From positions 264,784-328,783 of the forward strand of contig NZ_KI421421.1 of assembly GCF_000472285.1 (NCBI RefSeq): a stretch of DNA of 64,000 bases. Reading direction: 5' to 3'. Of this stretch, positions 5,036 to 22,021 are shown one piece after another. The stretch is from Desulfuromonas sp. TF. Its GTDB lineage: Bacteria; Desulfobacterota; Desulfuromonadia; Desulfuromonadales; ATBO01. A program made the position numbers and the translations under genes. A model generated the notes under the pieces. It saw nothing but the letters and a program-made list of their open reading frames with translations. It did not search any database and had not been told where the DNA came from. Numbering within the stretch: the first letter of the stretch is position 1; each line of letters starts with the position of its first letter.

Positions 5036-5070
5036 TTGGTCATTCATTATCTTTTGGGAGGCAAGGCTGC

Positions 5071-6761: not shown

Positions 6762-6788
6762 TGAGATCCGTCAGGAGAAGGCGGACGA

Positions 6789-6816
6789 TTTGACGGATTT
6801 GATGATATGGTACAAT
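6789..6816 (+). promoter_or_regulatory. Putative promoter for csbD-like gene
   Basis: TTTGAC and TACAAT are separated by 16 bases, 35 bases upstream of the start codon. Confidence 0.4.
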
Positions 6817-6850
6817 GATCTTGTAACCCCTGAATGAAAGGAGATCACTC

Positions 6851-7045
6851 ATGAATACCGAGCAAATGAAAGGTCAATGGATGCAGGTCAAGGGTGAGAT
6901 CAAGAAGCAGTGGGGCAAGCTCACCGACGACGAGCTGGACAGGATCGCCGGCGAGAGAGACAAGCTGGTCGGCAAACTGCAGGAAAAATACGGAATAACC
7001 AAGGAAGAAGCCGAAAGACAGGTCAGAGATTTCCGAATGCACTAG
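6851..7045 (+). CDS. CsbD-family stress-response protein
   Basis: A 64-aa, highly charged, helical protein. It shows the CsbD pattern: N-terminal M-K-G-Q-W-M-Q-V-K-G-E-I-K-K-Q-W-G-K-L-T-D-D-E-L, then a G-E-R-D-K-L-V-G-K-L-Q-E-K-Y-G-I segment and the closing E-A-E-R-Q-V-R-D-F. In other bacteria the family is under general-stress control; its biochemical role is not known. A good AAAGGAG site precedes the ATG. It is monocistronic, with its own putative promoter upstream and a strong terminator after it. Confidence 0.9.
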   Translation: MNTEQMKGQWMQVKGEIKKQWGKLTDDELDRIAGERDKLVGKLQEKYGITKEEAERQVRDFRMH

Positions 7046-7067
7046 GACTTGTCCTCAGCTTTCGATC

Positions 7068-7101
7068 AAAAAAAGGGCCGGCGCTTCGCCGGTCCTTTTT
7101 T
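7068..7101. terminator. Bidirectional intrinsic terminator
   Basis: A GC-rich stem (GGGCCGGCG / CGCCGGTCC) is flanked by an A-run on the left and six T on the right. It sits between two convergent genes (csbD-like and the glycosidase) and can serve both. Confidence 0.8.
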
Positions 7102-7122
7102 GCTGAAACAGATCCGGATTTT

Positions 7123-8325
7123 TTATCCGAACAGCGGCAGATCGTTCTCGAGAGCGGCGGCGGCGAGGAGGAAGAGGGCGGCGTTCCAGGATTGTCCCGG
7201 CATCCCGCCGGGGACACCGGTGCGGCCGTGAAACCATTCGTTGAACTCCCAGGCGTTGATCCGATTGAGAGCGGCCAGGCGCTCCATCTCGGCAAGGGCT
7301 TCATCGCCGCGGCCCTGCCGGATGAGGAGGAGCGCCCAGAAGGCGCCGACGAAGGGCCAGATGCCTCCGTTGTGGTACTGAAAGGGGAGATTCTGGCCGT
7401 GGCGCTCCATGTAGGCCCGCCATAGAGAGTGCTCCGGCTCGATGGGCGTGCCGACCACCCGGATGGGATAGGGGCGGTTGGCTTCCAGGGAAAGAAGCCC
7501 CTCGACGATCCTCTCCCCTTTGGCGGCCGAGGACAGGCCCGTGAGGGCGGCGAGCAGGTTGCCGAAGACGTCGACCTCTTCTCCCCAGAAAGAGAAATTG
7601 ACGAAGCTCAGGTAGAAGGGGGTCAGCTTCGCCTCCCTGCGGATGTAGTCGACCATCAGGGCGACGCGGCGATGCTCCGGCGCAGGCCCGTCGAAGGGAG
7701 AGAGAAGCTGATTGGCAAGATGAGCCGTGGATTCGGCGCCGGGCAGCCCGTAGAGCCCCTTGACCCAGTACCACAGGGCATTGGTGTAGAGGACGAAGCC
7801 CGAGCGGGGCATGATGTCGGCCCAGTCGCTGGCCTCGTTCTGCTGCAGCAGGTGCCAGACCGGATGCTCCTGACATCCGAGCCACTGCAGAGCGTGTTTG
7901 ATTTGTGACTCAAGCTGTCTTTCAAGTCCCTCGCCGGGAGCCAGGCGGTCGAAGAGGCGAACTGCGATCAGCCACCACAGGGTGGCGTCGATGCAGCCGG
8001 CATACCAGAAGTCGGCCTCTCCGGTCTCCGGCCGCACGAACTTGGAGATCTGACCGTTTCCCGCCTGAAAGGCGGCCAGGGTGAGCAGGCTGGCGCGCGC
8101 TCCGGAAATCAGTTCCTGCTCTCCGGAAGCGGCCATGCCGAGGGAGCAGATCGCGGCGTCGCGGCCGAAGATGCAGGTGTAATTGCGCCCCTCGGCCCGC
8201 GCCGACGGGGAGGCGGCCAGTATTCCGGCGGCGATCGTGTTGCCGCGCAGCAGTTCGATCGACCGCTGCCGACATTCGTCGATCAGGGTTGTGGCGCCGA
8301 TGGCCGAAAAAGGGGCCGTCTCCAT
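7123..8325 (-). CDS. (alpha/alpha)6-barrel glycoside hydrolase, GH100 invertase/debranching-like
   Basis: A 400-aa cytosolic protein. The ATG at 8325 has a GGAG site 8 bases before it; an upstream in-frame ATG (8364) is less well supported. Recognisable blocks are N-Y-T-C-I-F-G-R-D-A-A-I (substrate-pocket Arg-Asp), A-S-D-W-A-D-I-M-P-R-S-G-F-V-L-Y-T-N-A-L-W-Y (catalytic Asp region as in GH100 alkaline/neutral invertases), and Q-Y-H-N-G-G-I-W-P-F-V-G-A-F-W. The same fold occurs in amylo-alpha-1,6-glucosidases. It probably hydrolyses an alpha-glucoside such as sucrose or a glucan branch, which fits the glucan/trehalose genes 20 kb away, but the exact substrate is uncertain. No signal peptide. 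Confidence 0.72.
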   Translation of the reverse strand: METAPFSAIGATTLIDECRQRSIELLRGNTIAAGILAASPSARAEGRNYTCIFGRDAAICSLGMAASGEQELISGARASLLTLAAFQAGNGQISKFVRPETGEADFWYAGCIDATLWWLIAVRLFDRLAPGEGLERQLESQIKHALQWLGCQEHPVWHLLQQNEASDWADIMPRSGFVLYTNALWYWVKGLYGLPGAESTAHLANQLLSPFDGPAPEHRRVALMVDYIRREAKLTPFYLSFVNFSFWGEEVDVFGNLLAALTGLSSAAKGERIVEGLLSLEANRPYPIRVVGTPIEPEHSLWRAYMERHGQNLPFQYHNGGIWPFVGAFWALLLIRQGRGDEALAEMERLAALNRINAWEFNEWFHGRTGVPGGMPGQSWNAALFLLAAAALENDLPLFG

Positions 8326-8425
8326 CGTTGATCTCCGCCTGAGAAAATGCTTTTCGAGCGGCATTGTACGCTGTCCGCCCGATCGCTGGCAAGCCTCTTG
8401 CTCAGGCTATGCGGGGCGAACAGGC

Positions 8426-8453
8426 TTGCAATCCCTTCGATATGCGGTTAAAT
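8426..8453 (+). promoter_or_regulatory. Sigma-70-type promoter for haem sensor kinase
   Basis: TTGCAA and TTAAAT are separated by 16 bases, about 30 bases before the kinase start codon. It lies in the divergent spacer between the glycosidase and the kinase. Confidence 0.45.
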
Positions 8454-8485
8454 TCTATTAATTTTATATGCTGTCGAGTGAGCCC

Positions 8486-10072
8486 ATGCGTCTGCGCCTT
8501 ACCACAAAATTCACCCTGGTCACCAGTGCCGTTCTGGTTACGGCCATGGTTTTGTTCACCTATTTTGGTATCGGATCCCTGGAGCGGATCATTCAGGATG
8601 AGGCGGTCAAGGATATCGACAATCTCAGTGAAACGATCCTGCGGACAACCTACCATCAGATGCTGGAGGATGACCGGGAACTAGTATATCAGGCGATTGA
8701 AGAGGTCGGGTTCCAGAAAGGAGTCAGGCAGATCCGTCTGATCGACAAGGACGGCGTGATCCGCTACTCCACGCTTGAGCGGGAAATCGGGACCGAGGTC
8801 GACAAGAGCGGAGCCTCCTGCAATATGTGCCATGGCAAGCATGGTGATTCGCCCCTGGTGGCCGTTTCGTCCATGAGACGGAGCCGTAATTTCATCGATA
8901 GTGACGGCGAAGAAGTGATCGGGATGGCGAGGGGGATCTACAACCAGCCGACCTGCAGCATTGCGGCCTGTCATATTCATCCCCCTGGCGCCCAGTTGCT
9001 CGGCGTTCTGGATGTCACGGTCTCTATGAAGGAAATGACCAGCCAGATCAGCGGCTTCAGGCTGCAGATGATACTGTCCACCTTTGGGCTGCTGTTTGCC
9101 CTGGCTCTGAGTCTGGCTTTCGTCACCGGCCGGTTTGTTCATCGGCCGGTGCGCGACCTGCTGGCTCATACGCGGCGCCTGACCAGCGGCGACCTGGAGG
9201 GACGCATCGAGCCGCTGGCCCGGGATGAACTCGGGGAGTTGGAAGTGGCATTCAACGAGATGACCGGGAGTCTGCGTCAAGCGCAGTGGGAATTGCGGGA
9301 ACTGGCCAGTTCACTGGAAACCAAAGTCGAGCAACGCACCCGCGAGATCCGGGATATACAAGGCCACCTGGCGCGTTCGGAGAAGCTGGCGTCACTTGGG
9401 GAACTGGTGGCCGGTATCGCCCACGAAATCAACAATCCGCTGACGGGAATCATGGTTTTCTCCTCCATGATTCTGGAAGACGACCGCTTGCCGCAGGACA
9501 TGCGGAAGGATATGGAGGTCATTAACCGGGAGACGGAGCGCTGTTCCGGGATAGTTCGACGCCTGCTGGAATTCTCTCGGGAGACCCTCCCGCACAAGGC
9601 GCCGGAATTGATCAACCATCTGCTTGACAACACTCTGCATCTGCTGGAGAACCAGGCGACCTTTCACAATATCGATATCGCCCGTCATTATGCTTCCGAT
9701 CTGCCGCCGATCCTGGTCGACGGCAATCAGATCTGCCAAGTATGCATGAATATTCTGCTCAATGCCGCCCAAGCCATGCCTGGGGGGGGATCCCTGGCCC
9801 TCGCAACGGAGCTCTCTGAAGATGGAGAGTATCTGGCCGTCCGGTTCAGCGACACCGGGAGCGGCATACCGGAGAACGACCTCAAGCGGATCTTCGACCC
9901 ATTCTTCACCACCAAGGAGGAAGGCGGGACGGGGCTCGGACTGTCTGTTTCTTACGGAATCGTCGAAAATCATGGGGGAAAAATAACGGTGGACAGCCTA
10001 GTGGGGACGGGAACCACTTTTACGGTGCTGCTGCCGTTGAGATGGCCGGAAGAGGAAGAGGATCGAGTATAG
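8486..10072 (+). CDS. Sensor histidine kinase with periplasmic two-haem domain
   Basis: A 528-aa inner-membrane kinase. A first membrane helix (residues 7-30) leads to a periplasmic domain of about 160 residues with a CxxCH motif (C-N-M-C-H, near 111) and a C-x4-C-H motif (C-S-I-A-A-C-H, near 156). Both can bind c-type haem covalently, so a redox or ligand signal is likely. A second helix (about 195-215), a HAMP domain and a coiled coil precede HisKA (A-G-I-A-H-E-I-N-N-P-L, His near 312) and HATPase_c (N-I-L-L-N-A-A-Q, D-T-G-S-G-I-P, G-G-T-G-L-G-L). ATG 8486 was preferred over 8468 because GAGTGAG precedes it. The likely partner is the convergent NtrC-type regulator. Its sensor domain has a kinase-less paralogue at 16166. 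Confidence 0.88.
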   Translation: MRLRLTTKFTLVTSAVLVTAMVLFTYFGIGSLERIIQDEAVKDIDNLSETILRTTYHQMLEDDRELVYQAIEEVGFQKGVRQIRLIDKDGVIRYSTLEREIGTEVDKSGASCNMCHGKHGDSPLVAVSSMRRSRNFIDSDGEEVIGMARGIYNQPTCSIAACHIHPPGAQLLGVLDVTVSMKEMTSQISGFRLQMILSTFGLLFALALSLAFVTGRFVHRPVRDLLAHTRRLTSGDLEGRIEPLARDELGELEVAFNEMTGSLRQAQWELRELASSLETKVEQRTREIRDIQGHLARSEKLASLGELVAGIAHEINNPLTGIMVFSSMILEDDRLPQDMRKDMEVINRETERCSGIVRRLLEFSRETLPHKAPELINHLLDNTLHLLENQATFHNIDIARHYASDLPPILVDGNQICQVCMNILLNAAQAMPGGGSLALATELSEDGEYLAVRFSDTGSGIPENDLKRIFDPFFTTKEEGGTGLGLSVSYGIVENHGGKITVDSLVGTGTTFTVLLPLRWPEEEEDRV

Positions 10073-10170
10073 ATGACGGTTATGCGCACGCGCCGAGCGA
10101 ATCGGCCTCCGTCCGGGCTGGGGTAACCGGGCGGTCTGTTTTTGCCGTCATGCGGGGCTCATCTCGTCAT

Positions 10171-11592
10171 CTATGCATCCAGTCCCGTGGGCCGGTTGCG
10201 GGCCGAAAGGCCCTGTTTCTTGAGAAGTGCCTGGAAATTGGGACGAAGCATGCCCACTTCCTCGGCCGCCCGGGTCACATTCCATTTGTTCCGGCGCATG
10301 GCATCCAAAACGAAGGCCCTCTCGATGGTGTCGACGGCCTGCTCCCGCAACAGCCGTTTGCGTTCCTTCAGCTCTTCCACGGTCTGCGGCGCCTCCGTCA
10401 GCCCCGCCCCGTCTTTTTCTGCGGAAACCTGTAATTCCAGATCGACGCGCTGAACCAGATCTCCCTCCGCCAGGACCACTGCCCTCTCGATGAGATTTTC
10501 CAGCTCCCGGACGTTGCCGGGGAAATGGTAGTTCTCGAGGAGGGCCATGGCGTCGGGAGCCAGCCCCCGCATGTCCTTGCCGAGCTCTTCGGCAAAGCGG
10601 TTCAGAAAATGACCGACCAGTTGGCGAAGGTCCCCTTTTCTTTCCCGCAGGGGCGGCAATTCGATGGGGATGATATTGAGGCGGAAAAAGAGGTCTTCCC
10701 GGAAGCGGCCCGCGGCGACCATCTCGGGCAGGTTGGCGTTGGTCGCCGCCACCAGCCGGATGTCCATGGAAACCGGCTGGGTTCCACCGATCGGCAGTAC
10801 GGCCCGCTCCTGAAGGACTCGCAACAGCTTTGCCTGCGTCGTGAGGCTGATGTTGGCGATTTCATCCAGGAACAGAGTTCCTGAATCCGCGACCTTGAAC
10901 AGGCCGGTCTTGGTCTGGCTGGCACCGGTGAAAGAACCCTTGATGTGGCCGAACAGCTCGCTTTCGAGAAGATTTTCCGCAAGGGACGTGCAATCGACGG
11001 CGACAAAGGGAGCATTGCGGCGTGGGCTCTTGCGATGGATGGCCCGGGCAACCAGCTCCTTGCCGGTACCGCTCTCGCCCGTCACAAGCACCGTACTGTC
11101 CGTCGGCGCCACCTGCATGATCCGCCGGTAGACCCGCTGCATTTCCCCGCTACCGCCAATAAAGTCTTCGAATGCCTGAATCTCCTGCAGTTCACACTGC
11201 CGGTGCATGTCATCCACCAGGACGGGCTTCTGATCCAGTGCGCTGCGCACCTTTTCACTGATGATCTCGGGGGTGAAAGGCTTGGCGATATAGTCGATCG
11301 CTCCGTTTTTCATCGCCTCTACGGCCGTCTCCACGGTCGAATAACCGGTCATCATGATGATCGGCACTCCGGGATGGAGAATCCGGATCTGTCGTAATAC
11401 CTCCAGCCCTCCCATTCCCGGCATTTTGAGATCGGTGATGACGAGGGAAAAATCATGCTGATTCATGCGCTCCAGCCCGAGAAGTCCGCTCGGTGAGACG
11501 GCCACGGCATAACCTCTCGACTCAAGGACCCTGCGCAGACCTTCCCTGATCACCTCATCGTCGTCGATAACAAGAATCTGGGCCTGGTTCAT
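10171..11592 (-). CDS. NtrC-family sigma-54-dependent response regulator
   Basis: A 473-aa regulator. The receiver domain is intact (V-I-D-D-D-E near 10, phospho-acceptor in L-V-I-T-D-L-K-M-P-G-M-G-G, Lys in I-A-K-P-F). The AAA+ domain (about 145-375) has Walker A G-E-S-G-T-G-K-E, Walker B L-F-L-D-E-I-A, the R-finger region and W/F-P-G-N-V-R-E-L. The sigma-54 contact loop reads G-S-F-T-G-A rather than the usual G-A-F-T-G-A. The C-terminal Fis-type helix-turn-helix (R-N-K-W-N-V-T-R-A-A-E-E-V-G-M) binds DNA. It is convergent with the haem-sensor kinase and divergent from the sigma-54 promoter at 11909. The simplest reading is that it activates the cytochrome operon. Confidence 0.92.
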   Translation of the reverse strand: MNQAQILVIDDDEVIREGLRRVLESRGYAVAVSPSGLLGLERMNQHDFSLVITDLKMPGMGGLEVLRQIRILHPGVPIIMMTGYSTVETAVEAMKNGAIDYIAKPFTPEIISEKVRSALDQKPVLVDDMHRQCELQEIQAFEDFIGGSGEMQRVYRRIMQVAPTDSTVLVTGESGTGKELVARAIHRKSPRRNAPFVAVDCTSLAENLLESELFGHIKGSFTGASQTKTGLFKVADSGTLFLDEIANISLTTQAKLLRVLQERAVLPIGGTQPVSMDIRLVAATNANLPEMVAAGRFREDLFFRLNIIPIELPPLRERKGDLRQLVGHFLNRFAEELGKDMRGLAPDAMALLENYHFPGNVRELENLIERAVVLAEGDLVQRVDLELQVSAEKDGAGLTEAPQTVEELKERKRLLREQAVDTIERAFVLDAMRRNKWNVTRAAEEVGMLRPNFQALLKKQGLSARNRPTGLDA

Positions 11593-11908
11593 CGGTAAAC
11601 CCCCTTTAAATTAAAACACACCCATAATTGTCCGGCAAACCACCCGGCGAGTCAAGTATTACGTGAATAATATTTAATATTATATCCAGTTGTACAAAAC
11701 CATTATACATCCCGGACAGGTGATTGTTAATTCAATTAATTCAACAGGATAGATGTTTAAATGGCGAACCGCTCCGGGACTGGTCGGGTTCCTGTGCATA
11801 TTTCCTTCATACAGTCGCTGCCTTCTCCCTAACCGCTGTCCCGGATATTGTTATTTAAAAAGCCTTTATTACCAGCAAGTTACGTAAAAATTAAAAATAT
11901 TTTAAATT
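11593..11908. promoter_or_regulatory. AT-rich divergent regulatory region with repeated GTCC(C)GG motifs
   Basis: This 316-base spacer has no gene. Four copies of a TGTCC(C)GG core lie at 11629-11635, 11711-11718 (inverted), 11773-11780 (inverted, partial) and 11837-11844. They are in the range expected for enhancer sites of the adjacent NtrC-type activator. The assignment is inference; no other strong palindrome was seen. Confidence 0.35.
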
Positions 11909-11925
11909 AGGCACGGCCAATGCAC
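11909..11925 (+). promoter_or_regulatory. Sigma-54 promoter of the cytochrome operon
   Basis: AGGCACGGCCAATGCA gives GG at 11910-11911 and GC at 11922-11923 with exactly 10 bases between, as required for the -24/-12 elements. The predicted transcription start near 11935 leaves a leader of about 38 bases before the first gene. Confidence 0.75.
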
Positions 11926-11972
11926 TAGACATGGGTAACGGAACACAGCCCCCTGGGGGAAAGGAGAAAGCC

Positions 11973-12215
11973 ATGAAAAAGCTCGTAGTGCAAGGATTGC
12001 TGCTGTTTGGAGTTGCCGGTTCAGCCCTGGCATCCGGTGCGGCCGAAAGCGGGGGAGGCGGGTTCCTGATCGCCCTCTTTCTCGGCTTCTTTGCGGTCAT
12101 TGTCGTGTTCCAGCTCATTCCAAGCCTGATGGTCTTTTTCTCTGTCGTCAAGGAAATCTTCGCGCCCCGGCAGACCAAGGTCTCTGAGATCGTGAAGCAG
12201 GACGAGGCCAAGTAG
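11973..12215 (+). CDS. Small membrane protein A (80 aa), first gene of cytochrome operon
   Basis: The start is the ATG at 11973 after AAAGGAG. It has an apparent cleavable signal peptide (M-K-K-L-V-V-Q-G-L-L-L-F-G, cut after A-L-A), then a Gly/Ser linker and one strong membrane helix (F-L-I-A-L-F-L-G-F-F-A-V-I-V-V-F-Q-L), followed by a short charged tail. I do not recognise a named family. It has the same length (80 aa) and the same helix-end pattern Q-L-x-P-x-L-M as the protein at 12705, so the two look like paralogues. Position at the head of an Fe-S/cytochrome/NrfD operon suggests an accessory subunit of that membrane complex. Confidence 0.75.
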   Translation: MKKLVVQGLLLFGVAGSALASGAAESGGGGFLIALFLGFFAVIVVFQLIPSLMVFFSVVKEIFAPRQTKVSEIVKQDEAK

Positions 12216-12261
12216 CCGATCGCAGGATGAAGCCCGAACGGCAGCCATGGAGGCGCATGTG

Positions 12262-12651
12262 ATGCGCGGAATACTCATTGCCGACCAAGATCTGGAATCC
12301 AGGAAACGCATGGCGAATCTCTTTATCGAGGCGGGGTATCACGTCACGGTGACCGATTCGGCGGCAAGTGCCCTCTACGATGTCCTGAAAAAGACGGCGC
12401 AGGTGGTGATCCTGAGCAGCGAGTTCGACGAAGTCCGGGCAGCGGATCTGATCCCGCTGCTCAAGCGATGCAACCGCAACCTGACCGTCATCCTGGTTAC
12501 GGGAGAACTGCCGCTGCCGCTGGTTCGCAGGCTGCGGCGCGAAGGGATCTTCTATCACGCCCTCCGCCCTGTTCAGCCGGAAGACAGTGAAGAGATACGC
12601 CAGGCGGTAAGCTGTGCCTTCGCCAGCCTGGTCCAGCAGGAACCGAGGTGA
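12262..12651 (+). CDS. Degenerate response-regulator receiver (pseudo-receiver), 129 aa
   Basis: The start is the ATG at 12262 with GGAGG 7 bases before it. The protein follows a CheY-like alpha/beta pattern: I-L-I-A-D-Q-D at the first strand with the acidic pair, V-V-I-L-S-S-E-F at strand 3, V-I-L-V-T-G at strand 4, and Y-H-A-L-R-P-V at strand 5. The phospho-acceptor Asp is replaced by Ser in strand 3 and the conserved Lys by Arg in strand 5, so canonical phosphorylation is unlikely. No output domain is attached. It may act as a constitutive or protein-binding module within the operon it sits in; its partner is unknown. Confidence 0.7.
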   Translation: MRGILIADQDLESRKRMANLFIEAGYHVTVTDSAASALYDVLKKTAQVVILSSEFDEVRAADLIPLLKRCNRNLTVILVTGELPLPLVRRLRREGIFYHALRPVQPEDSEEIRQAVSCAFASLVQQEPR

Positions 12652-12668
12652 TCCACCGAATCGGTGGA
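12652..12668 (+). promoter_or_regulatory. Intergenic hairpin in cytochrome operon
   Basis: TCCACCG-AAT-CGGTGGA begins immediately after the pseudo-receiver stop codon. It has no T-run, so it may be an RNA-stability or processing element rather than a terminator. Confidence 0.4.
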
Positions 12669-12704
12669 CCGTACGATAATTCAACCAACCAAGAGGAGGA
12701 TGAC

Positions 12705-12947
12705 ATGAAAGTAACAGGGAAAGGGTTACCGGCACTGCTGTCTTTGTTCGTCGCCACACCGGCTTTCGCGGTGGATACCTCCCAGACCTATAACAGCGGC
12801 ATTCTGGTCTTGGGGTTCCTCGGATTTTGCGCCCTGATCCTGATGGTGCAACTCTTCCCGGCGCTGATGATGCTGTGCGGCTGGATCAAGGGGCTTTTCA
12901 AGGGGGCCGCGACGGCCGGGGAGAAAAAAAGCGCCAAATCCCATTGA
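12705..12947 (+). CDS. Small membrane protein B (80 aa), paralogue of protein A
   Basis: The start is the ATG at 12705 after AGAGGAGG. It has a signal peptide (cut near A-F-A), a single membrane helix (I-L-V-L-G-F-L-G-F-C-A-L-I-L-M-V-Q-L-F-P) and a lysine-rich tail. The Q-L-F-P-A-L-M-M-L motif after the helix corresponds to Q-L-I-P-S-L-M-V-F in the 11973 protein, and both are 80 aa, so they probably arose by duplication. The family is not recognised. It may be a single-helix subunit or assembly factor of the cytochrome/Fe-S/NrfD complex. Confidence 0.72.
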   Translation: MKVTGKGLPALLSLFVATPAFAVDTSQTYNSGILVLGFLGFCALILMVQLFPALMMLCGWIKGLFKGAATAGEKKSAKSH

Positions 12948-12990
12948 CCCACTCTTCGGTAACTTTGGACGACGACAAAGGAGATGAACC

Positions 12991-13176
12991 ATGATTGAGA
13001 TGCTGCAGAACTTTTTCCAGTCGATCGGGGAGGTGAGATCCGTGGTCACCCTCGTCGATTTCTATCAGTACATCAAAGGGGTGGAGTACCTGATCTGTGT
13101 CGCGTTCTTCATCTCTTTCCCGATGTTCTATCGTTATATCCATCACACTGACGCTCCCGGGCGGGATGGACGGTGA
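12991..13176 (+). CDS. Small single-helix membrane protein C (61 aa)
   Basis: A strong AAAGGAG site precedes the ATG. The N-terminal half is amphipathic (M-I-E-M-L-Q-N-F-F-Q-S-I-G), and one hydrophobic segment (Y-L-I-C-V-A-F-F-I-S-F-P-M-F-Y-R-Y-I) is followed by a short basic tail with two His. There is no signal peptidase site, so it is probably anchored with its C-terminus in the cytoplasm or as a hairpin. The family is not recognised. Its stop lies 32 bases before the start of the cytochrome gene. A role as a small subunit of the electron-transfer complex is inferred from context only. Confidence 0.65.
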   Translation: MIEMLQNFFQSIGEVRSVVTLVDFYQYIKGVEYLICVAFFISFPMFYRYIHHTDAPGRDGR

Positions 13177-13208
13177 GCGTGATGCGAACCAGAAAGGAGG
13201 ACGTCGTC

Positions 13209-13733
13209 ATGCTCATCAGGAAATGCCTGCTCGTTGCCTTCACCGGAATAGCCCTTGCCTTTCTGCCGGCCGGATTCGCCCTGGCCGGAGAGGGGCCGGA
13301 CCAGGTCGCCCTGGACTCTCTGGCCTCCCTTTACGAAGCGGTCGACTTCGACCATGCCATGCATGAAGCGGTGGCGGACGATTGCGCCACCTGCCATCAC
13401 CACACCACCGGCGATATTCCTCAGCCCCAGGAATGCCAGGGCTGCCACTATGCCGGCCAGCAGGCGGCGACGGTTTCCTGCCGGGATTGCCATCTGGCCG
13501 AGCCTTTTTCCGCACAGGTGCTGCGCGACAAGGATCAGAATGTCCAGCTTTATCACACGGACCAGGTGGGGCTCAAGGCGGCCTACCATCTTTCCTGCAT
13601 GGGCTGCCACAAGGAGATGGGTGGACCTGTCGGCTGCGAGGATTGCCACGCACGAACCGATGCCGGAGATGCCTTTTTCCATTCGGGGAGTTACTCACCG
13701 TCTTCCGCTCCGGCAAACGGTGCGGGTCACTGA
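13209..13733 (+). CDS. Periplasmic pentahaem c-type cytochrome (class III-like), 174 aa
   Basis: The start is the ATG at 13209 with AAAGGAGG before it. A signal peptide (M-L-I-R-K-C-L-L-V-A-F-T to A-L-A) directs export. Five CxxCH haem motifs are visible: C-A-T-C-H, C-Q-G-C-H, C-R-D-C-H, C-M-G-C-H and C-E-D-C-H, together with extra His residues (F-D-H-A-M-H, H-H-H) that can be distal ligands, as in cytochrome c3/c7-type folds. It is encoded directly before a Tat-exported ferredoxin and an NrfD-like membrane protein, the arrangement of Nrf/Hmc/Cbc-type quinone-linked complexes, so it likely exchanges electrons with the ferredoxin subunit in the periplasm. Confidence 0.9.
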   Translation: MLIRKCLLVAFTGIALAFLPAGFALAGEGPDQVALDSLASLYEAVDFDHAMHEAVADDCATCHHHTTGDIPQPQECQGCHYAGQQAATVSCRDCHLAEPFSAQVLRDKDQNVQLYHTDQVGLKAAYHLSCMGCHKEMGGPVGCEDCHARTDAGDAFFHSGSYSPSSAPANGAGH

Positions 13734-13784
13734 TCCCTGGCTGTGTGGTTTAACCCATCCATTCGGGAATGAAGGAGATGAGAG

Positions 13785-14726
13785 ATGAAGATAAATCGTA
13801 GACGTTTTCTGGCGGCCAGCCTGGCCGGAGGCACGGCCGCTGCCCTGGCCCCGGCCCGCAAGGCGATGGGTGCGGCAACCTTCGAGGGCTACCCGGACGG
13901 CATGGGGGTCCTGGTCGACCTGACCCGCTGCATCGGCTGTCGCAGCTGTGAAGCGGCCTGCAACAAGGAGCAGCAGCTCCCAGCTCCCAGCGAGCCTTTC
14001 GATGATCCGTCGGTGTTCGACCGAACTTTTCATGGCGGCACCCAGAAGCGGCGCCCCGATGAAAATCACCTCACGGTGGTCAATCGTTACCAGCCGGAGG
14101 GGCAGCAGGAGCCTGTTTACCGAAAGGTCCAATGCAACCATTGCAACGAACCGGCGTGCCTGACCTCCTGCTTCGTCAATGCCTATACTAAAACCAGTGA
14201 AGGGGCGGTCGTTTACAATTCCAAGGTTTGCGTCGGCTGCCGCAACTGCATGGTCGCCTGCCCATTCAACATCCCGGCGTACTCCTACTCGAGCGTGCTT
14301 AACCCGATGGTCAAGAAGTGCATCTTCTGCCACGAGACCCGGCTGAAAAACGGCAAGCCCCCGGCCTGCGTCGAGATCTGCCCCCAGGAAGCCCTCACTT
14401 TCGGTTATCGCAACGACCTGCTGAAGATCGCCAGGGAGCGGATCAAGATGTACCCGGGAACTTATGTGGATCACATCTACGGTGAGAAGGAAGTCGGCGG
14501 CACGGCCTGGATGTATCTCTCCAATGTGCCGTTCGACCAGGTCGGCTTCAACACCACCTTGCAGAAGGAGCCGATCATCAATAACGTCAAGGACTTTTTG
14601 AGCATGGTGCCGATGGTTCTGGCCATCTGGCCGGCCCTGTTCAGCGGCTTCCACCTGCTCTCTTCACGCAAGGGGAACCATGGTGAAGATCATGAACATC
14701 CGGAACAGGAGGAGACGAGACAATGA
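13785..14726 (+). CDS. Tat-exported 4x[4Fe-4S] ferredoxin subunit (HybA/HmcB/NrfC-like)
   Basis: The 313-aa protein begins with a twin-arginine signal (N-R-R-R-F-L-A-A-S). Four cysteine clusters follow: C-I-G-C-R-S-C-E-A-A-C, C-N-H-C-N-E-P-A-C-L-T-S-C, C-V-G-C-R-N-C-M-V-A-C-P, and C-I-F-C-H with a distant C-V-E-I-C-P, the usual arrangement for four cubane clusters in DmsB/NrfC/HybA proteins. A hydrophobic segment near the C-terminus (M-V-P-M-V-L-A-I-W-P-A-L-F-S-G-F) probably anchors it to the membrane, as in HybA. It overlaps the NrfD-like gene by 4 bases. It should carry electrons between the quinone-reactive NrfD protein and the pentahaem cytochrome. Confidence 0.9.
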   Translation: MKINRRRFLAASLAGGTAAALAPARKAMGAATFEGYPDGMGVLVDLTRCIGCRSCEAACNKEQQLPAPSEPFDDPSVFDRTFHGGTQKRRPDENHLTVVNRYQPEGQQEPVYRKVQCNHCNEPACLTSCFVNAYTKTSEGAVVYNSKVCVGCRNCMVACPFNIPAYSYSSVLNPMVKKCIFCHETRLKNGKPPACVEICPQEALTFGYRNDLLKIARERIKMYPGTYVDHIYGEKEVGGTAWMYLSNVPFDQVGFNTTLQKEPIINNVKDFLSMVPMVLAIWPALFSGFHLLSSRKGNHGEDHEHPEQEETRQ

Positions 14727-16071
14727 AACATCTGCTCGCAAGAGGCTGGTCGCCAGCCGAGTCGGTCAAGGAACTCGGTTCCGGCCGTGAAGGCCTGATA
14801 AGCAAACTTCTGCTCGGCCTGTCGCCGCGGGACTATCTCGCACAGGCCGTGCGCAATCCCTTCAACTGGATCCTGGGGCTGATCTTCGTCGTCGGGCTGC
14901 CGCTGATCGCCGGCCGTTTCTTTTTCGGTCTCGGTTGGGTGACCCACAGCTCAAACGATTATCCCTGGGGGCTGTTCCTCGGTTTCGGCCTCTTAACGCA
15001 TGGTGCCCCTCTCGGCCTCCGGCTTCATGCTCGGCACCACGGTGGAGGTTTTCGGCCGGCACGATTTCGAGCCGATAGAGCGGCTGGCCCTGCTCAACGG
15101 CCTGCTCGGTTATCTCTTTGCCGTCGTCTACCTGCTGGTCGACCTCGGCCAGCCCTGGCGCCTGCCGTACCCGATGACGGTCGCCTTCGGACCAGCGGCC
15201 GTCCTGTTCCTGGTCGGCTGGCATGTGGCAACCTATCTGTCGGTTCAGGTCGCGGAGGTTTCCTCCTCCTTTTTCGAGTGGATGGGGTGGCTGTGGGGCA
15301 AGCGCTTCATCCGGCGCATCACTCTTGGCCTGACGGTGTCCGGCCATCATCCTTTCCACTCTTCACCAGGGAGCCCTGGGGGCGCTCTTCACCTATGCAC
15401 CGGGCAAGGTCCATCCCCTGTGGTACTCGTCGTCCTTCCAGTGGATCTTCTTTTTCTGCTCGTCGATTCCCGGCGGCCTGTGCATGGTGATCGCGGTCAG
15501 CACCATCGCCAGGAAGACCATGGGCTGGCGCTGCGGAGAGGCCTTTCAGGAGAACCTCGACCGCCTGACCATCGCCCTGGCCAAGGGAGCGAGCATGGGG
15601 CTGATAACCTACCTGGTCATCAAGCTGGTCGGCGTTGCCCACGACAACGAATGGGCGTACCTGGCTACCGGCTGGGGGCAGTGGTTCATGCTGGAAATTG
15701 GTATCGGGGTTATCCTTCCGCTGATCCTGTTCGCCAGGGCCATCCATCATAACCGGGTAGGATTGGCGCGGTTCGCGGCCTTTATGACGGTCTTCGGCAT
15801 TGTTCTGAACCGTCTGAACACCGCGCTGATCTCCTTCAACTGGAATCTTTACCAGGAGATTCCCCACTGGAAGGAAGTGATGGTCAGCGTTACCATCTTT
15901 GCCCTGTACATCGTGACTTACCGCTTCATCCTCTATCGGCTGCCGATCCTGTATCGCCTTAAGGATCTCAAGGAGGTGGCCACCGAAACCGAACTGGCCG
16001 AGGAACCTGGCGGCTTGCGGGAAGGGATTGCCGCCCCCTCGGGCGCTTATCGCATTGCTGATGTCGAATGA
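14723..16071 (+). pseudogene. NrfD/HybB-like quinone-interacting membrane subunit, two +1 frameshifts
   Basis: The coding sequence is continuous in homology but split over three frames: 14723-14998, 15000-15344 and 15346-16071. Each junction is restored by removing one base (C at 14999 and C at 15345). The repaired product is about 448 aa, with eight or more membrane helices. Blocks read Y-P-W-G-L-F-L-G-F-G-L-L then M-V-P-L-S-A-S-G-F-M-L-G, V-S-G then I-I-L-S-T-L-H-Q-G-A-L-G, and C-S-S-I-P-G-G-L-C-M-V-I-A, as in HybB/HmcC proteins. It would be the quinone-reactive membrane subunit of the complex. Flanking frames show no other decay, so assembly error and a recent mutation are both possible. 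Confidence 0.85.
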
Positions 16072-16165
16072 CCGGGGCCGATGAGCCGGCTCGCCGTGGG
16101 GGCGGGCCGGCGATGGGCCGGCGAGGACGGAAGGGTCGGGGGAAGTTCCGTCAAGAGAGGTCGCC

Positions 16166-17077
16166 ATGTTAAAGAATCTTTGTACCAGGGCCATCTTGCC
16201 TGTCGCCCTGGCGGTTACAGGCTTCGTCGTCATGTGCTGCATTCTCTTCTATACCGTCGTCAAATCAGATCTCGCCGACCATGCCGCCGAGCAGTCCGCG
16301 GCTCTGGCGGGGACGGTCCTGAAGTCGACCCGCTACGCCATGCTGCGGGACGATCGTGAAACCCTGCGCAATATTCTGCAGAATATCGGGTCGCAAGGCG
16401 GCGTCGAACATGCCCGGATCTTCAACAAGGAAGGTCGGGTGATGTTTTCCGCGCACAGCGAGGAAGTGGCCCATACCCTTGACAAAAACGCTGAAGGATG
16501 TGTCGGATGCCATTCCGGGCCGATTCCCGTTGCCAATCCCGAACTGTCGCGGATGACCCGGCGCTTCGTCAACGGCGGCGGAGTGGAGATCCTGGCGGTG
16601 ACGGCGCCCGTCTACAACGAGCCGGCGTGCGTCGGCGGCGCCTGCCATGAGGCTCTCAGCCGGCGCAAGGTGCTCGGCATGCTCGATATCGGTCTCGACC
16701 AGGCGCCGCAGAAGGCGGCCCTGGCCACCTTACGTTTGCGAATGATCCTGTTCAGCCTGATGATCCTGGTGCTGACCGTCGGTGGAGTCGCGGCGCTGCT
16801 GAACCATCAGGTATTTCTTCCGATCCGGCGCCTGACGGACTTTACTGAAAATCTTTCTAATGGTATTTTAGACGAGGAATTTCCCCGGGGCTGCGGGGAA
16901 CTTGAGCGACTTGCCGGCCACCTGCACAGGATCGCGGTCGCCCGGAACGAGTCTTCGGAAAGTGCTGCAGGTCACGGCGCAGAGCCTGAGAAGGACTATG
17001 ATTCAAAAGCCTATCCAAGGGATATCGAACCAGAATTCCGACCGGCTTCGGCAGGAGATCCTGGACAGAATCCATAG
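16166..17077 (+). CDS. Kinase-less two-haem periplasmic sensor with HAMP (paralogue of the 8486 kinase)
   Basis: The start is the ATG at 16166 after AGAGAGG. The layout copies the sensor half of the kinase at 8486: a membrane helix (residues 11-30), a periplasmic domain with R-Y-A-M-L-R-D-D-R-E-T-L, a CxxCH (C-V-G-C-H) and a C-x4-C-H (C-V-G-G-A-C-H), a second helix (about 195-215) and a HAMP segment (L-P-I-R-R-L-T-D-F). No kinase or methyl-accepting domain follows. The last 45 or so residues are low complexity and overlap the next gene in another frame, so a frameshift near 16950 may have replaced the true C-terminus. It may report haem redox state to, or compete with, the kinase; this is inference. 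Confidence 0.72.
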   Translation: MLKNLCTRAILPVALAVTGFVVMCCILFYTVVKSDLADHAAEQSAALAGTVLKSTRYAMLRDDRETLRNILQNIGSQGGVEHARIFNKEGRVMFSAHSEEVAHTLDKNAEGCVGCHSGPIPVANPELSRMTRRFVNGGGVEILAVTAPVYNEPACVGGACHEALSRRKVLGMLDIGLDQAPQKAALATLRLRMILFSLMILVLTVGGVAALLNHQVFLPIRRLTDFTENLSNGILDEEFPRGCGELERLAGHLHRIAVARNESSESAAGHGAEPEKDYDSKAYPRDIEPEFRPASAGDPGQNP

Positions 17078-17525
17078 TCTGCAAGCCCGAGCCAACCGGG
17101 GGATCTGGCTGATCGCCGCTTTCCTGGCGCTCAGTATTGCCGCCTCGCGAGGTTTCGATCTGCTCCCCGAGCTTTCCGCCGGAGCCCGGCAATGGCTCGG
17201 CGCGGCGCCTCCGGTGCGCATGATTCAGCTGGCGCTGGTCATCTATGCCTTCAGCGCCTCGGTCCTGATCCTGTCGCGGATGGCCAGGGGGGAGCCGCAT
17301 GGAAGGAATTACACCCATGTCCTGTATCTGACGGCATTTTATGGATTTTTTCACTACGCCCAAGCCCTCAGCGACAATTTCTGGGCTGTGCTGGTTGCCG
17401 GAGGAACCGTTCTGGGGCTGGCGGCTTTCCAGGGCTGGTCCTACTGCACTTCGCAGATCCGCCAGGAAGAAGAGATGCTTCAAGACCTGGATCGGCGCAT
17501 CAGGAACAGGCTGACTCCTGAATGA
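16998..17525 (+). CDS. Four-helix membrane protein of unknown function
   Basis: A 175-aa protein starting at ATG 16998 after GAGAAGG. The start lies inside the preceding gene, and in-frame coding-like sequence extends about 80 bases further upstream, which raises the possibility of a frameshifted fusion with the haem sensor. After a charged, coiled-coil-like N-terminus (D-R-L-R-Q-E-I-L-D-R-I-H-S-L-Q), four hydrophobic segments are seen: G-I-W-L-I-A-A-F-L-A-L, I-Q-L-A-L-V-I-Y-A-F, V-L-Y-L-T-A-F-Y-G-F-F and F-W-A-V-L-V-A-G-G-T-V-L-G. A charged helix ends the protein. I do not recognise the family. It is the last gene of the redox operon. Confidence 0.6.
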   Translation: MIQKPIQGISNQNSDRLRQEILDRIHSLQARANRGIWLIAAFLALSIAASRGFDLLPELSAGARQWLGAAPPVRMIQLALVIYAFSASVLILSRMARGEPHGRNYTHVLYLTAFYGFFHYAQALSDNFWAVLVAGGTVLGLAAFQGWSYCTSQIRQEEEMLQDLDRRIRNRLTPE

Positions 17526-17645
17526 CAAAAACCACAGATCCGCAGACCTTCTCCATGAGTCCACGGCTTTTCTCTTCCGGTGGGGCTTTACAGCATGCCG
17601 CTGCATGGTAAGCTGATATTACCCCTCATAAAGGAGGAAGACAGC

Positions 17646-17699
17646 ATGACCGTCTCCGAGCCGCCGGGCCGCGTAGGAACCACCCCCCATAATCAATAA
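17646..17699 (+). CDS. Possible 17-aa small ORF with strong ribosome-binding site
   Basis: AAAGGAGG lies 7 bases before an ATG that opens a 17-codon frame (M-T-V-S-E-P-P-G-R-V-G-T-T-P-H-N-Q). The ribosome-binding site is among the best in the window, but the frame is short and could be a remnant 5' end or a leader peptide. A terminator follows 75 bases later. There is no known family. Confidence 0.3.
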   Translation: MTVSEPPGRVGTTPHNQ

Positions 17700-17773
17700 C
17701 ACTGAAAAAATATCTGGTAGATCCAGATGAAATCCCCAAAGGGGATACTGAAAGATTCGACATCAGTGATAAC

Positions 17774-17807
17774 GAAAGAGCCCCGGTTGCCGCCGGGGCT
17801 CTTTAAT
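17774..17807 (+). terminator. Intrinsic terminator closing the redox locus
   Basis: The stem AAAGAGCCCCGG / CCGGGGCTCTTT has a short loop and is followed by TTTAATTT. The remainder of 17526-18005 contains the small ORF and one more hairpin and otherwise shows nothing I can name. Confidence 0.75.
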
Positions 17808-17961
17808 TTAGGGCTCCCGACAGGGCGGGATGATCGGCCGCGAGAACTCCAACTCCTGCTTCGTCCATGGGAGAAGGAAATTTTTCTGAGGCAATCAGAG
17901 GGGGATTAGTACATAATGGGCGTAAAGGAACAACGATCGCCTCACCATGTTTATCACCTCC

Positions 17962-17983
17962 GCCGGACCCCCATTGGTCCGGC
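17962..17983 (+). promoter_or_regulatory. Hairpin upstream of dus gene
   Basis: GCCGGACC and GGTCCGGC flank a 6-base loop, 22 bases before the Dus start codon, followed by TTTG. It could be a leader hairpin or a weak terminator. Confidence 0.4.
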
Positions 17984-18005
17984 TTTGCCATACTTATAGA
18001 GAGAG

Positions 18006-19019
18006 ATGGACAGGATGTCTGACCGTTTCGAACGGGTCAAAAATGGAACAGCCGAAGCACTCCGGGAGCTCCCCTGGCCCTCGGGGCTCTCCCCCCTGAT
18101 GCTGGCTCCCATGCAGGGGGTGACTAATCGTGCCTTGCGCTCCCTCTTTATCGAGTGGGTGCGCCCCGATGTCGTCTTCACCGAGTTCATGCGGGTTCAC
18201 TCGGAGAGTGCCCGGCGCCGCCTCTCCGCCGGCGATCTGCGCGAGGCCGCTGCCGCTGAAGGGGGCGTTCCCCTGGTGGTACAGCTGATCGGCCATGGCC
18301 GCGAGGCCCTGGTCTCAGCGGCGCGGGCCGCCGAGGCGGCCGGAGCCCGGCATATCAACCTCAATATGGGATGTCCTTACGGACGCATGACCAAAGGCCT
18401 CACCGGCGGCGGGATGCTGCGCGAACCGGAGAAACTGGCGGAAATCATCCCCGCTCTCCGCGGGGCGATTTCAGGGACCTTTTCGGTGAAGATGCGGGCC
18501 GGCTACGAGGACTCCGCGCTGGTGCACTCTCTTATTCCTCTGCTCGAGGGCGCCGGGGTCGATTTCCTGGTGCTGCATCCCCGCACGGTGATCCAGCAGT
18601 ATACCGGGCGGGCGGACCATGCCGTGACTGCAGAGGTGGTGCGCCGGACGCGCCTGCCGGTGATCGCCAACGGCGACATCCGCAGCGCGGTCGAGGGTCT
18701 GCGGATCTTGCGGGAAACCGGCGCCGCCGGGCTCATGCTCGGCCGCGGCGCCGTCGCCGATCCTCTGCTGTTCGAGCGCCTGCGCGGGCGGGAGCCCGCC
18801 GAGCCTGAGCGGCGGGAGCGGGCGGCAATGCTGAGGAGGTATCTGGGGCAGACCCTGGAGCGCTACGGCGAGCTGTTCTGCGGCGAGGCCCAGGTGCTGG
18901 GCAAGGTCAAGGAAGTTCTGGCCTTCATGGACGATCCCGACTTCGGCGGGGAGATCAGACAGATGAAGAAGGCCAGGAGGGTGGACACCTTTGCCGCTCT
19001 GATCGAGGAACTGGCGTAA
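18006..19019 (+). CDS. dus: tRNA-dihydrouridine synthase
   Basis: A 337-aa FMN enzyme that reduces uridines in tRNA. Signature blocks: M-L-A-P-M-Q-G-V-T-N near residue 35, H-I-N-L-N-M-G-C-P (FMN and substrate loop with the catalytic Cys expected shortly after), K-M-R-A-G-Y, L-H-P-R-T, V-I-A-N-G-D-I and L-M-L-G-R-G-A. The catalytic Cys region reads G-C-P-Y-G-R-M-T-K-G-L-T-G-G-G, so the second Cys found in many Dus enzymes (GCP...C) is not obvious, and activity or specificity may differ. ATG 18006 and ATG 18015 are both possible starts. It is followed 2 bases later by a DUF3820 gene. Confidence 0.85.
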   Translation: MDRMSDRFERVKNGTAEALRELPWPSGLSPLMLAPMQGVTNRALRSLFIEWVRPDVVFTEFMRVHSESARRRLSAGDLREAAAAEGGVPLVVQLIGHGREALVSAARAAEAAGARHINLNMGCPYGRMTKGLTGGGMLREPEKLAEIIPALRGAISGTFSVKMRAGYEDSALVHSLIPLLEGAGVDFLVLHPRTVIQQYTGRADHAVTAEVVRRTRLPVIANGDIRSAVEGLRILRETGAAGLMLGRGAVADPLLFERLRGREPAEPERRERAAMLRRYLGQTLERYGELFCGEAQVLGKVKEVLAFMDDPDFGGEIRQMKKARRVDTFAALIEELA

Positions 19020-19021
19020 AA

Positions 19022-19240
19022 ATGGAATTTTCCTTGGATCACGCGGCGCTGCTGGAGCTGGCGGGGGCGCGCATGCCTTTCGGCAAGCATCAGGGATGGC
19101 TTCTCATCGATCTGCCTGAACCTTATGTCGTCTGGTTCGCCCAGCAAGGTTTCCCCGAGGGGAAACTCGGTACGATGCTGCGGGCGGTCTACGAAATCAA
19201 GGTCAACGGGCTGGAGTTCCTGTTCGATCCGCTGCGCTGA
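19022..19240 (+). CDS. DUF3820 family small protein
   Basis: A 72-aa protein with the DUF3820 pattern: M-P-F-G-K-H-Q-G near residue 18, L-I-D-L-P-E-P-Y-V-V-W-F and the C-terminal G-L-E-F-L-F-D-P-L. The family is small, conserved in proteobacteria and of unknown biochemical role. It follows the dus stop by 2 bases and so is probably co-translated with it. Confidence 0.85.
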   Translation: MEFSLDHAALLELAGARMPFGKHQGWLLIDLPEPYVVWFAQQGFPEGKLGTMLRAVYEIKVNGLEFLFDPLR

Positions 19241-19269
19241 AAACCCTGGAAACTTTCCCGCTCACGTCT

Positions 19270-19965
19270 CTACTGCAGGTCGAAAAGGATGAACCGGGAA
19301 GCCTCCCGTCCCGCCAGCTTCAGCATCTCCTCATCACTCACGGCGGCGCCGTCGCCGCTCTCCAGCCTCGTCCCGTTCAGATCGAGTGCCCCGTCGATCA
19401 CCTGCAGCCAGGCATGGCGGCCGGTGGGTAGAGACCATTCCAGGTTCCTGCCGGCCTCCAGTTTCGCGAAGTAAACGGCGGCATCCTGATGAAGGAGGGC
19501 CGACCCTTTCCGCCCGTCCCGGGAAATGAGGAGGCTCAGCTCGTTGGCTGGGGCCGAGGCGAAGCGCTTCATCTCATAGCCGGGGGGAAGACCTTTCTTC
19601 TCCGGAAAGATCCAGATCTGCAGCAGATGGACGGGCTCGTGGTCGGAAGGGTTCGCCTCGCTGTGGCGGATGCCGGCGCCGGCGGTGATGCGCTGGATTT
19701 CCCCGGCGCGGATGATCTCACGGTTTCCCATGTCGTCCCGGTGTTCCAGCGCCCCTTCGATGATGAAGGTGATGATCTCCATGTCGTGGTGGGGATGCAG
19801 GGGGAAGCCCCTGCCGGGCTGCACCCGATCCTCGTTGATGACCCGCAGGGCGCGGAAACCCATGTGGCCGGGATCGTGATATTCGCCGAAGGAAAAGGTA
19901 TGGCGGCTGTCCAGCCAGTCTTCCTGAACATGGCCGCGCTCCTGCGATTTGCGTACAGTGATCAT
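19270..19965 (-). CDS. Pirin-like bicupin (YhhW type)
   Basis: A 231-aa cupin. The start is the ATG at 19965 after AGGGAG; an upstream extension to 20061 has no such support. The N-terminal cupin carries metal ligands in H-P-H-H-D-M-E-I-I-T, preceded by S-F-G-E-Y-H-D-P-G-H-M-G-F, and I-R-H-S-E-A-N further on. The second cupin (about 140-231) is degenerate. Homologues of this type bind a metal, and some show quercetinase activity; the physiological substrate is unknown. It is convergent with the DUF3820 gene. Confidence 0.88.
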   Translation of the reverse strand: MITVRKSQERGHVQEDWLDSRHTFSFGEYHDPGHMGFRALRVINEDRVQPGRGFPLHPHHDMEIITFIIEGALEHRDDMGNREIIRAGEIQRITAGAGIRHSEANPSDHEPVHLLQIWIFPEKKGLPPGYEMKRFASAPANELSLLISRDGRKGSALLHQDAAVYFAKLEAGRNLEWSLPTGRHAWLQVIDGALDLNGTRLESGDGAAVSDEEMLKLAGREASRFILFDLQ

Positions 19966-20062
19966 GACGAAGCTCCCTGTTCGGGTTGCGTTTAATGATA
20001 TCGCCGCCGATAGGGATTTCAAATAGGCAAGTGAGAAGGTAATTGGGGAGGATGGCGCCATC

Positions 20063-21709
20063 TTACTTGAGGACCTTCAGCAGATGCGGCACCAGCTGTT
20101 TCTTGCGGGAGAGGACGCCCTTGAGCTCGTAGAGATTTTCCCCGGCCTGGGGATAGCCGATGATGTAGGGGAGTTCTCTGCTGCCGAGCGCCAGCAGCAG
20201 ACTGGTTTCCTGGACGATGTCGGTGACCAGAAGCCCGACGGTGCCGAGCCTCTTCTCCTCCTTCACCGCTTCCAGGGCCGCTTCGATTTCCTCTCTCAGC
20301 TCATGGAATTCCTGAAAACTGACCACTTCGACCTGACCGATGCCGAATTTCTTGTCGCCGGCGGAAAACTCTTTGAAGTCGGAAAGGACCAGTTCTCTGC
20401 GGGAAGGGTAGGCGGCCAGGGCGCTGCCGGCCTGAAAAATGCGGCGGCCGAACTCCTCGGGGTCGAGCGCGGCGAGACTCCCCAGCCAGACGGCGATCTC
20501 CCGGTCGATATCGGTGGTGGTCGGCGACTTGAGGATGACCGTATCGGAGAGGAGACCGGCAAGCATCAGGGCGGCGCACGAAGGCTCCGGGACGATGCCG
20601 GACTGCCGGTAGAGGGTGGCGACGACGGTGCAGGTGCTGCCGAGAGGCTGATTGATGAAGCGGATCGGCTGATCGGTATGAAAGTTGCCGAGGCGGTGGT
20701 GATCGACGATTTCGAGGATCTCGACCTTCTCGGCGCCGGAAACGGCCTGGGAGAGTTCGTTGTGATCGACCAGGATCAACTTGACCGGCGACGGCGCCAG
20801 CAGATTGCTCTTGGTGGCCATGCCGGCGACCCGGCCGTCCCGATCTAGAACGATGGCTCCGGGGTCGCTGCTGTGGAGTAGCTTGAACCGCAGATCGTCC
20901 ACCCGATCTCCCAGGCCGATGCGGGGGAACGAATCGACGACCAGTTTGCCCACCGGCGTCGCCAGCCGGGTCAGCCAGGCGCTGGTGGCCGTGTCGAAGG
21001 GAGTCGACAGGACCGTCACCCTTTTCTCCCGGGCCCTCTCCAGAATGGCAGCGGAAACCGGCAGGCCTCCGGTGACCACGAGGACGCGCACGCCGATGTC
21101 CACCGCTTCGCTCTGAATATTCTCCCGGTTGCCGGTGAGCAGGACCATGGTGCGGGGGTCGAGCCCCTGGATCTTGTCACGAAACGTCCCCGAGGCCATC
21201 GCCCCGACATAGAGTTTGAGCTCCTCCACGCTGTCGGCCTGGTGTTCGGTCAGGACCCTGGCCTGCAGGCAGGCCTGCACCGACCGCGGGGAGGCGAGCA
21301 CGCGGCGGATCTCTGCTTCGCGGCGCGGAATCAGAATATGCTCGGTGAGGCGCTTGAGGACCAGCAGTCCCAGAGGCCGCCGGTCGGCATCGACCACCGG
21401 CACCTGACGGATGTCGTGCCGGTGAAAGAGTTCCATCGCCTGGGACAGGGGCGTATCGGCCGTTATCGTGACTACCTGCTCGGCGATCACGTCGCGTACC
21501 CGGGGGTGCACGTCGTTGATCAGTTCCGGCAAGGGCAGGGAGAGCTCGTTGAGTACGAATTCCGTCTGCCGGTTCAGGTTCCCCGCCCGGGCGGGGCGTA
21601 CGTCGGTCATTCCCTGCCGCCGGCGCAACTCGGCGTAGGCCATGGCGCTGCAGACGGAGTCGGTATCGGGGTTGCGATGTCCGACGACGTAGATGATTTC
21701 GTTGCGCAT
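20063..21709 (-). CDS. ppaC: Family II (DHH) inorganic pyrophosphatase with CBS-DRTGG regulatory insert
   Basis: A 548-aa cytosolic Mn/Co-dependent enzyme that hydrolyses pyrophosphate. The start is the ATG at 21709 with GGAGAA before it. The DHH N-terminal motif V-V-G-H-R-N-P-D-T-D-S-V-C-S-A opens the protein, and the metal ligands continue at I-L-V-D-H-N-E and I-V-D-H-H-R-L-G. Between them lie a CBS repeat (about 65-115), a DRTGG-type domain and a second CBS repeat (ending A-G-M-A-T-K-S-N-L-L), the layout of adenine-nucleotide-regulated clostridial-type PPases. The DHHA2 tail carries S-D-T-V-I-L-K-S-P-T-T-T. It is monocistronic. Confidence 0.93.
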   Translation of the reverse strand: MRNEIIYVVGHRNPDTDSVCSAMAYAELRRRQGMTDVRPARAGNLNRQTEFVLNELSLPLPELINDVHPRVRDVIAEQVVTITADTPLSQAMELFHRHDIRQVPVVDADRRPLGLLVLKRLTEHILIPRREAEIRRVLASPRSVQACLQARVLTEHQADSVEELKLYVGAMASGTFRDKIQGLDPRTMVLLTGNRENIQSEAVDIGVRVLVVTGGLPVSAAILERAREKRVTVLSTPFDTATSAWLTRLATPVGKLVVDSFPRIGLGDRVDDLRFKLLHSSDPGAIVLDRDGRVAGMATKSNLLAPSPVKLILVDHNELSQAVSGAEKVEILEIVDHHRLGNFHTDQPIRFINQPLGSTCTVVATLYRQSGIVPEPSCAALMLAGLLSDTVILKSPTTTDIDREIAVWLGSLAALDPEEFGRRIFQAGSALAAYPSRRELVLSDFKEFSAGDKKFGIGQVEVVSFQEFHELREEIEAALEAVKEEKRLGTVGLLVTDIVQETSLLLALGSRELPYIIGYPQAGENLYELKGVLSRKKQLVPHLLKVLK

Positions 21710-21832
21710 CGTATATTCTCCAAAGGGGATCAATTAAGTCCGGTTTTCAGCGGTCTTTTTAACACAGATGCCTCGCGGAGCTAAAGTCATATTACCGCTG
21801 CTCCGATTGTTTTTCTCTTATATTCCTGCTTC

Positions 21833-22021
21833 AGAAACGGCCTGATCGAAGATGGCGAAACCTGGATGGAGATGATCAGAGCACGAAACCTCAGTTCTCA
21901 CACCTACAATCCCGAAACCGCCGAAAAAATAGTCGAAGATATTCGCAGCCGGTTCCATCCGGCCTTTGAGCAGATGATCAGGACGTTCGACGATCTGGCG
22001 GAAAATGCCGGGAATCATTGA
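21833..22021 (+). pseudogene. Truncated HI0074-family nucleotidyltransferase substrate-binding protein
   Basis: A start-less fragment whose translation (F-R-N-G-L-I-E-D-G-E-T-W-M-E-M-I, then R-N-L-S-S-H-T-Y-N-P-E-T-A-E) matches the C-terminal half of HI0074-type proteins, which partner MNT nucleotidyltransferases. The upstream part is missing; in-frame sequence before 21833 has no family resemblance and no start codon. Its stop overlaps the next ATG (TGATG), keeping the usual gene-pair arrangement. It is not expected to be functional. Confidence 0.7.

Follow-up and report, generated by a model that had tools for sequence, protein, structure and literature searches.

A CbcSTU-like operon with a split membrane subunit gene

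The window, as we call the whole 64,000-nucleotide stretch of Desulfuromonas sp. TF DNA analysed here, encodes a multihaem cytochrome, a 4Fe-4S protein and a membrane subunit of HybB/HmcC type side by side (Table 1), the gene content of the CbcSTU (Cbc4) complex described for Geobacter, a common respiratory complex of the iron-reducer type. The order cytochrome, 4Fe-4S protein, integral membrane subunit is shared with Geobacter CbcSTU as set out in the relevant parts of PMC11434368 and PMC10989804, and loci from Geotalea and Citrifermentans have the same gene order as the window. Unlike in Geobacter CbcSTU, the membrane subunit gene of the window is out of frame, occupying three reading frames rather than a single open one; the CbcS-like cytochrome, moreover, has five CXXCH motifs, versus the four haems listed for a G. 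metallireducens CbcS in the portion of PMC10989804 that treats it.

Table 1. Features of the cbcU-like gene and its neighbourhood (window coordinates)
Feature	Position	Strand	Remarks
Small membrane-protein-like ORF	11931..12215	+	in 18 of 34 related loci
Response-regulator receiver protein	12247..12651	+	in 20 of 34 related loci
Small membrane-protein-like ORF	12648..12947	+	in 19 of 34 related loci
Small ORF	12991..13176	+	in 29 of 34 related loci
CbcS-like class III/c7-type cytochrome	13173..13733	+	intact; five CXXCH motifs
CbcT-like (HmcB/HybA-type) 4Fe-4S protein	13785..14726	+	intact
cbcU-like gene (HmcC/HybB-type, NrfD-fold integral membrane subunit)	14723..16071	+	out of frame at two junctions
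cbcU-like piece 1, residues 1-92	14723..14998	+	ribosome-binding-like AGGAGGAG upstream
cbcU-like junction 1	14993..14999	+	TTA (Leu91), ACG, extra base; net +1
cbcU-like piece 2, 115 codons	15000..15344	+	most conserved portion of the gene
cbcU-like junction 2	15344..15345	+	GGCC preceding ATC; one surplus base
cbcU-like piece 3, 241 residues and stop	15346..16071	+	–
Membrane sensor-like protein	16166..17077	+	one CXXCH motif; in 22 of 34 related loci

The neighbourhood is a recurrent one. Across 34 named loci, the 4Fe-4S protein is found in all 34, the cytochrome in 33, the sensor in 22 and the response regulator in 20, and the locus of one relative used repeatedly below (G134) shows the same surroundings for the cbcU-like gene. 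When the ORFs of four relatives served as queries against window positions 5000-22000, the cbcU-like gene was the only one found split, which bears out the description of the operon as otherwise intact in a first-pass annotation made from the DNA letters.

Identity and fold of the membrane subunit

In a CbcSTU (Cbc4)-like complex, the predicted product is the membrane subunit that binds quinone; it is of HmcC/HybB type and has an NrfD fold. The best NCBIfam matches of two intact relatives are to HmcC (359-361 bits) and to the HybB-type model PRK10881 (161-163 bits), over nearly the full model length; these scores fall below both curated cut-offs, 550 bits for the HmcC equivalog NF045714 (against 361.2 and 359 for the two relatives) and 450 bits for the HybB-type model, so the relatives are filed under neither equivalog. 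The label "NrfD-like" given earlier holds at the level of fold, while at the level of family the closest model is HmcC: neither intact relative matches Pfam NrfD model PF03916, and the cbcU-like gene of the window reaches 15.4 bits with it, under a cut-off of 25.8.

Evidence for the fold comes from an AlphaFold2 model of the intact G134 relative, a poor one (pLDDT 58, pTM 0.54) that was used for fold matching and rough junction placement only. Its nine best Foldseek matches are chains C and F (ActC and ActF) of alternative complex III, at TM scores of about 0.50-0.60 and 12-16% identity for this low-confidence model. An NrfD/ActC-type helical-bundle fold is thus supported for the modelled cbcU-like protein; alternative complex III shares this fold with it but has different partners. 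A phmmer search of PDB sequences with an intact relative returned nothing at E 0.01.

Two net +1 changes within one gene

With all frames read, the cbcU-like gene consists of three successive open frames, 14723-15001, 14997-15347 and 15346-16071. Reading through both junctions gives 92+115+241 = 448 residues of membrane protein. When the three pieces were used as tblastn queries against 65 loci, they were found to abut in one frame in close relatives, with zero spare bases; at one locus (L003), for example, residue 92 of piece 1 ends at base 1155 and residue 2 of piece 2 begins at 1156. Because the pieces join without a spare base in relatives, each junction in the window carries a net +1, and the proposal that one 448-residue protein is restored across two +1 events is confirmed. 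Each piece by itself matches NCBIfam HmcC (E values of 6.6e-9, 1.9e-24 and 1.4e-63, in order) as well as the HybB-type model, and a codon hidden Markov model with frame-change moves independently places the second junction at 15342, while not calling the first. Since each piece alone matches the same family, and since the second junction is also called by the HMM, the three-frame gene is more than a chance arrangement.

The two junctions differ in detail. At junction 2 the extra C is indistinguishable from its neighbour. At junction 1, the Leu91 codon TTA, four bases before the extra base, looks like a substitution; TTA is rare in this genome, accounting for 156 of 105,753 codons in its long ORFs. 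Junction 1 is most simply described as a clean insertion of one C, and a C before AT is the simplest placement at both sites, as had been noted at first pass; from the sequence around Leu91, however, junction 1 is probably a compound local change with a net effect of +1, and a clean insertion there is doubtful. A direct 10-base repeat, GCATGGTGCC, occurs at 14602-14611 and 14998-15007, its second copy covering the extra base of junction 1. Templated mutation through this repeat was considered and set aside, one chance match being by our rough estimate not rare enough to support such a claim.

Conservation in relatives

All relatives compared belong to the same order as the source genome and come from other genera and families. 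Piece 2 is detected at E <= 1e-20 in 56 of 136 genomes of the order, the window's own included, and at 56 of the 57 places in the 55 relatives it belongs to an open frame 418 or more residues long, the remaining place being a contig end. For a tally of frame at the junctions, 76 related loci were reduced by 12 with the same core DNA to 64 distinct places, distant loci (L015-L031; 17 loci, about 30% identity) being left aside. A single frame runs through both junctions at 62 of these 64. The other two are Geotalea toluenoxydans JCM 15764 (L062), with its own different frameshift elsewhere in the gene in an error-ridden assembly, and a locus (L133, genome G109) at which the gene runs off the contig. 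The window's two shifts are shared by none of the 64.

Apart from the disruptions themselves, relaxed constraint is not seen. Among 45 intact homologues (two of whose rows, L003 and L032, share the same core DNA), conservation reaches 95% or more in 161 columns, of which the pieces in the window keep 160. The one deviating column is residue 91, Leu in the window against Phe in 45 of 45, and in 62 of 62 intact sequences of the larger set. As nine of these 161 columns are no more than two residues away from a junction, the coincidence of Leu91 with junction 1 is suggestive rather than decisive. Differences between the window and G134 are concentrated at third codon positions in every piece, as would be expected for a coding gene. 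The calculated chance that no conserved residue would be hit is 0.044 with 10 random substitutions and 0.002 with 20; with its conserved columns kept, the gene can be a pseudogene of very recent origin at most.

The same conservation of protein content across all three pieces, together with CAT as the in-frame codon at both shifts, could be read as a sign of programmed +1 recoding, by ribosomal frameshifting or 4-base decoding, that yields the full-length protein. We regard this as very improbable. The sites are not conserved, given the tally above; a slippery run is lacking, for homopolymers within 40 bases reach five at most and that one lies off the junction; CAT is an ordinary codon here (1,420 of 105,753 training codons); and inspection by eye revealed no 7-base motif common to both sites. 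According to the discussion of programmed sites in PMC3711429, such a site should comprise seven or more bases kept by purifying selection. Recoding, which had already been ranked as the less likely option at first pass, thus finds no backing in either a slippery run or a conserved site. The specific version in which a genuinely shifted gene is expressed full-length through two lineage-specific +1 sites, both at a CAT codon, would make a respiratory complex conditional on decoding, and seems more improbable still.

No more credible is separate translation of the pieces as subunits of a split protein. ATG codons do occur at 15000 and at 15484, the latter overlapping the stop of the first ORF, but neither is preceded by a ribosome-binding-like sequence, and a product begun at 15484 would lack 46 residues at the start of piece 3, the conserved IILSTLHQGALG block among them. 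Both junctions, furthermore, fall inside predicted helices (86-112 and 192-224 in the low-confidence model of the relative) rather than between them.

Frameshifts elsewhere in the genome

The frame-change HMM was first run over the window plus 20 stretches, which together span 464 kb with 502 gene starts and gave 23 raw events, and then over a further 800 kb with 863 gene starts, where 8 of 25 raw events passed the filter; the total sample was 1.264 Mb. Events at overlapping genes, stretch ends and N gaps, and those from short downstream-tail frames, were dropped; three others (L084:14191, L084:17227 and L082:437) were judged from their reading frames alone to be gene ends or remnants. Besides the cbcU-like gene, only two real-looking frameshifted genes emerged, neither doubly shifted and both named by eye: a long Hsp70-like gene whose frame changes at eight consecutive G (L085 near 3758; G000:C16), through homopolymer error or possibly phase variation, and a LysE-like gene with one frame change on the minus strand (L162; G000:C7 near 267249). 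The HMM recovered 241 of 436 planted insertions, and 218 of 330 away from gene ends, so a few further shifts were probably missed.

Systematic assembly error, one of the explanations first offered, is not supported, because shifts are rare in the 1.264 Mb and the operon neighbours are in frame; on the same two observations we reject homopolymer-type error as a cause acting across the genome. What a systematically poor assembly looks like is illustrated by the same locus in G. toluenoxydans JCM 15764 (2861-10061 of L062), where 5 of 10 ORFs are split by comparison with Geotalea sp. SG265, a pattern unlike that of the window genome. With 3 to 8 random shifts, the expected number of chance pairs within one gene is 0.006 to 0.06. 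A pair is therefore unlikely to reflect independent random events, which points to a local cause: relaxed selection after a first inactivation, or a bad patch of consensus sequence.

Recent inactivation or a local error

The second of these causes, in which the organism has an undamaged cbcU gene and the draft is in error over a few hundred bases, comes close to an even chance in our judgement. In its favour are the position of the two shifts within 350 bases of each other, the survival of 160 of the 161 conserved columns, and the rare-codon anomaly beside the extra base of junction 1, which suggests several wrong bases together. Gaps of 10 N are numerous in the draft, and the flanks of some are duplicated: scaffolds are joined in this way at L067 14767, L079 3470, L081 12281 and L085 4796, with flanks identical over 70-77 bases, suggesting a scaffolded short-read draft with sequence duplicated at the joins. 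Against such an error, the window contains no N, the DNA occurs only once in the genome, the sampled sequence showed no second gene with two shifts, and neither site has a long homopolymer. Insertions outside homopolymers are uncommon errors in short-read assemblies. Antonov et al. 2013, in the part of PMC3711429 concerned with unclustered frameshifted genes, expected one category of them to be sequencing errors, which favours a local error here. The singleton frameshifted genes of GeneTack, as treated there, likewise have a frame change absent from homologues; the window gene differs in having two.

The reading we favour, at about even probability, is that the cbcU-like frame was lost very recently in the sequenced strain or population, one of the options raised at first pass; the data are compatible with this, and about equally so with a purely local consensus error. 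On this account we infer that the organism itself carries the extra bases and that function has been lost. Inactivation fits the confinement of frame changes to the cbcU-like gene within its neighbourhood, and the rarity of shifts elsewhere, combined with the improbability of a chance pair, is in keeping with an initial hit after which selection was relaxed. A gene that had gained two indels should nevertheless show more damage, given that its only altered conserved column is the one at junction 1, and neither junction lies in the sort of homopolymer at which slippage is usual. The double frameshift itself, whatever its origin, is genuine and well characterized, an anomaly of a familiar sort.

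If recent inactivation is correct, a normally intact, strongly conserved quinone-subunit gene would have lost its frame very recently. Translation would start at 14723, with the only good ribosome-binding site, lose the frame after residue 92 and end at 15490; the product as written from 14723 has one hydrophobic segment and 163 wrong residues, among them 27 Lys/Arg. No usable quinone subunit would then be produced, and it follows that the co-encoded ferredoxin and multihaem cytochrome would lose their connection to the menaquinol pool if no other membrane subunit took over. The earlier statement that these two proteins lose their quinone site is a fair inference for this complex. The genome holds no second close copy of the cbcU-like gene; seven of its other genes, however, score above the cut-off for the NrfD family, so the loss may be tolerable, disabling one complex and not necessarily all quinone-linked complexes.

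Should the bases prove real, a relative of the metal reducers would have lost, in nature, one of its several quinone-linked membrane complexes, which would offer a small natural test of the degree to which a Cbc4-type complex is dispensable. Should they prove to be errors, the locus would illustrate how a draft of good appearance can disrupt a single conserved gene unnoticed, with the result that automatic annotation would wrongly call the complex incomplete.

Elsewhere in the window, on the minus strand at 61523-61885 and 63664-63743, are two neighbouring c-di-GMP-I-GGC (RF03167) riboswitch matches and, nearby, a third match, to c-di-GMP-I (RF01051).
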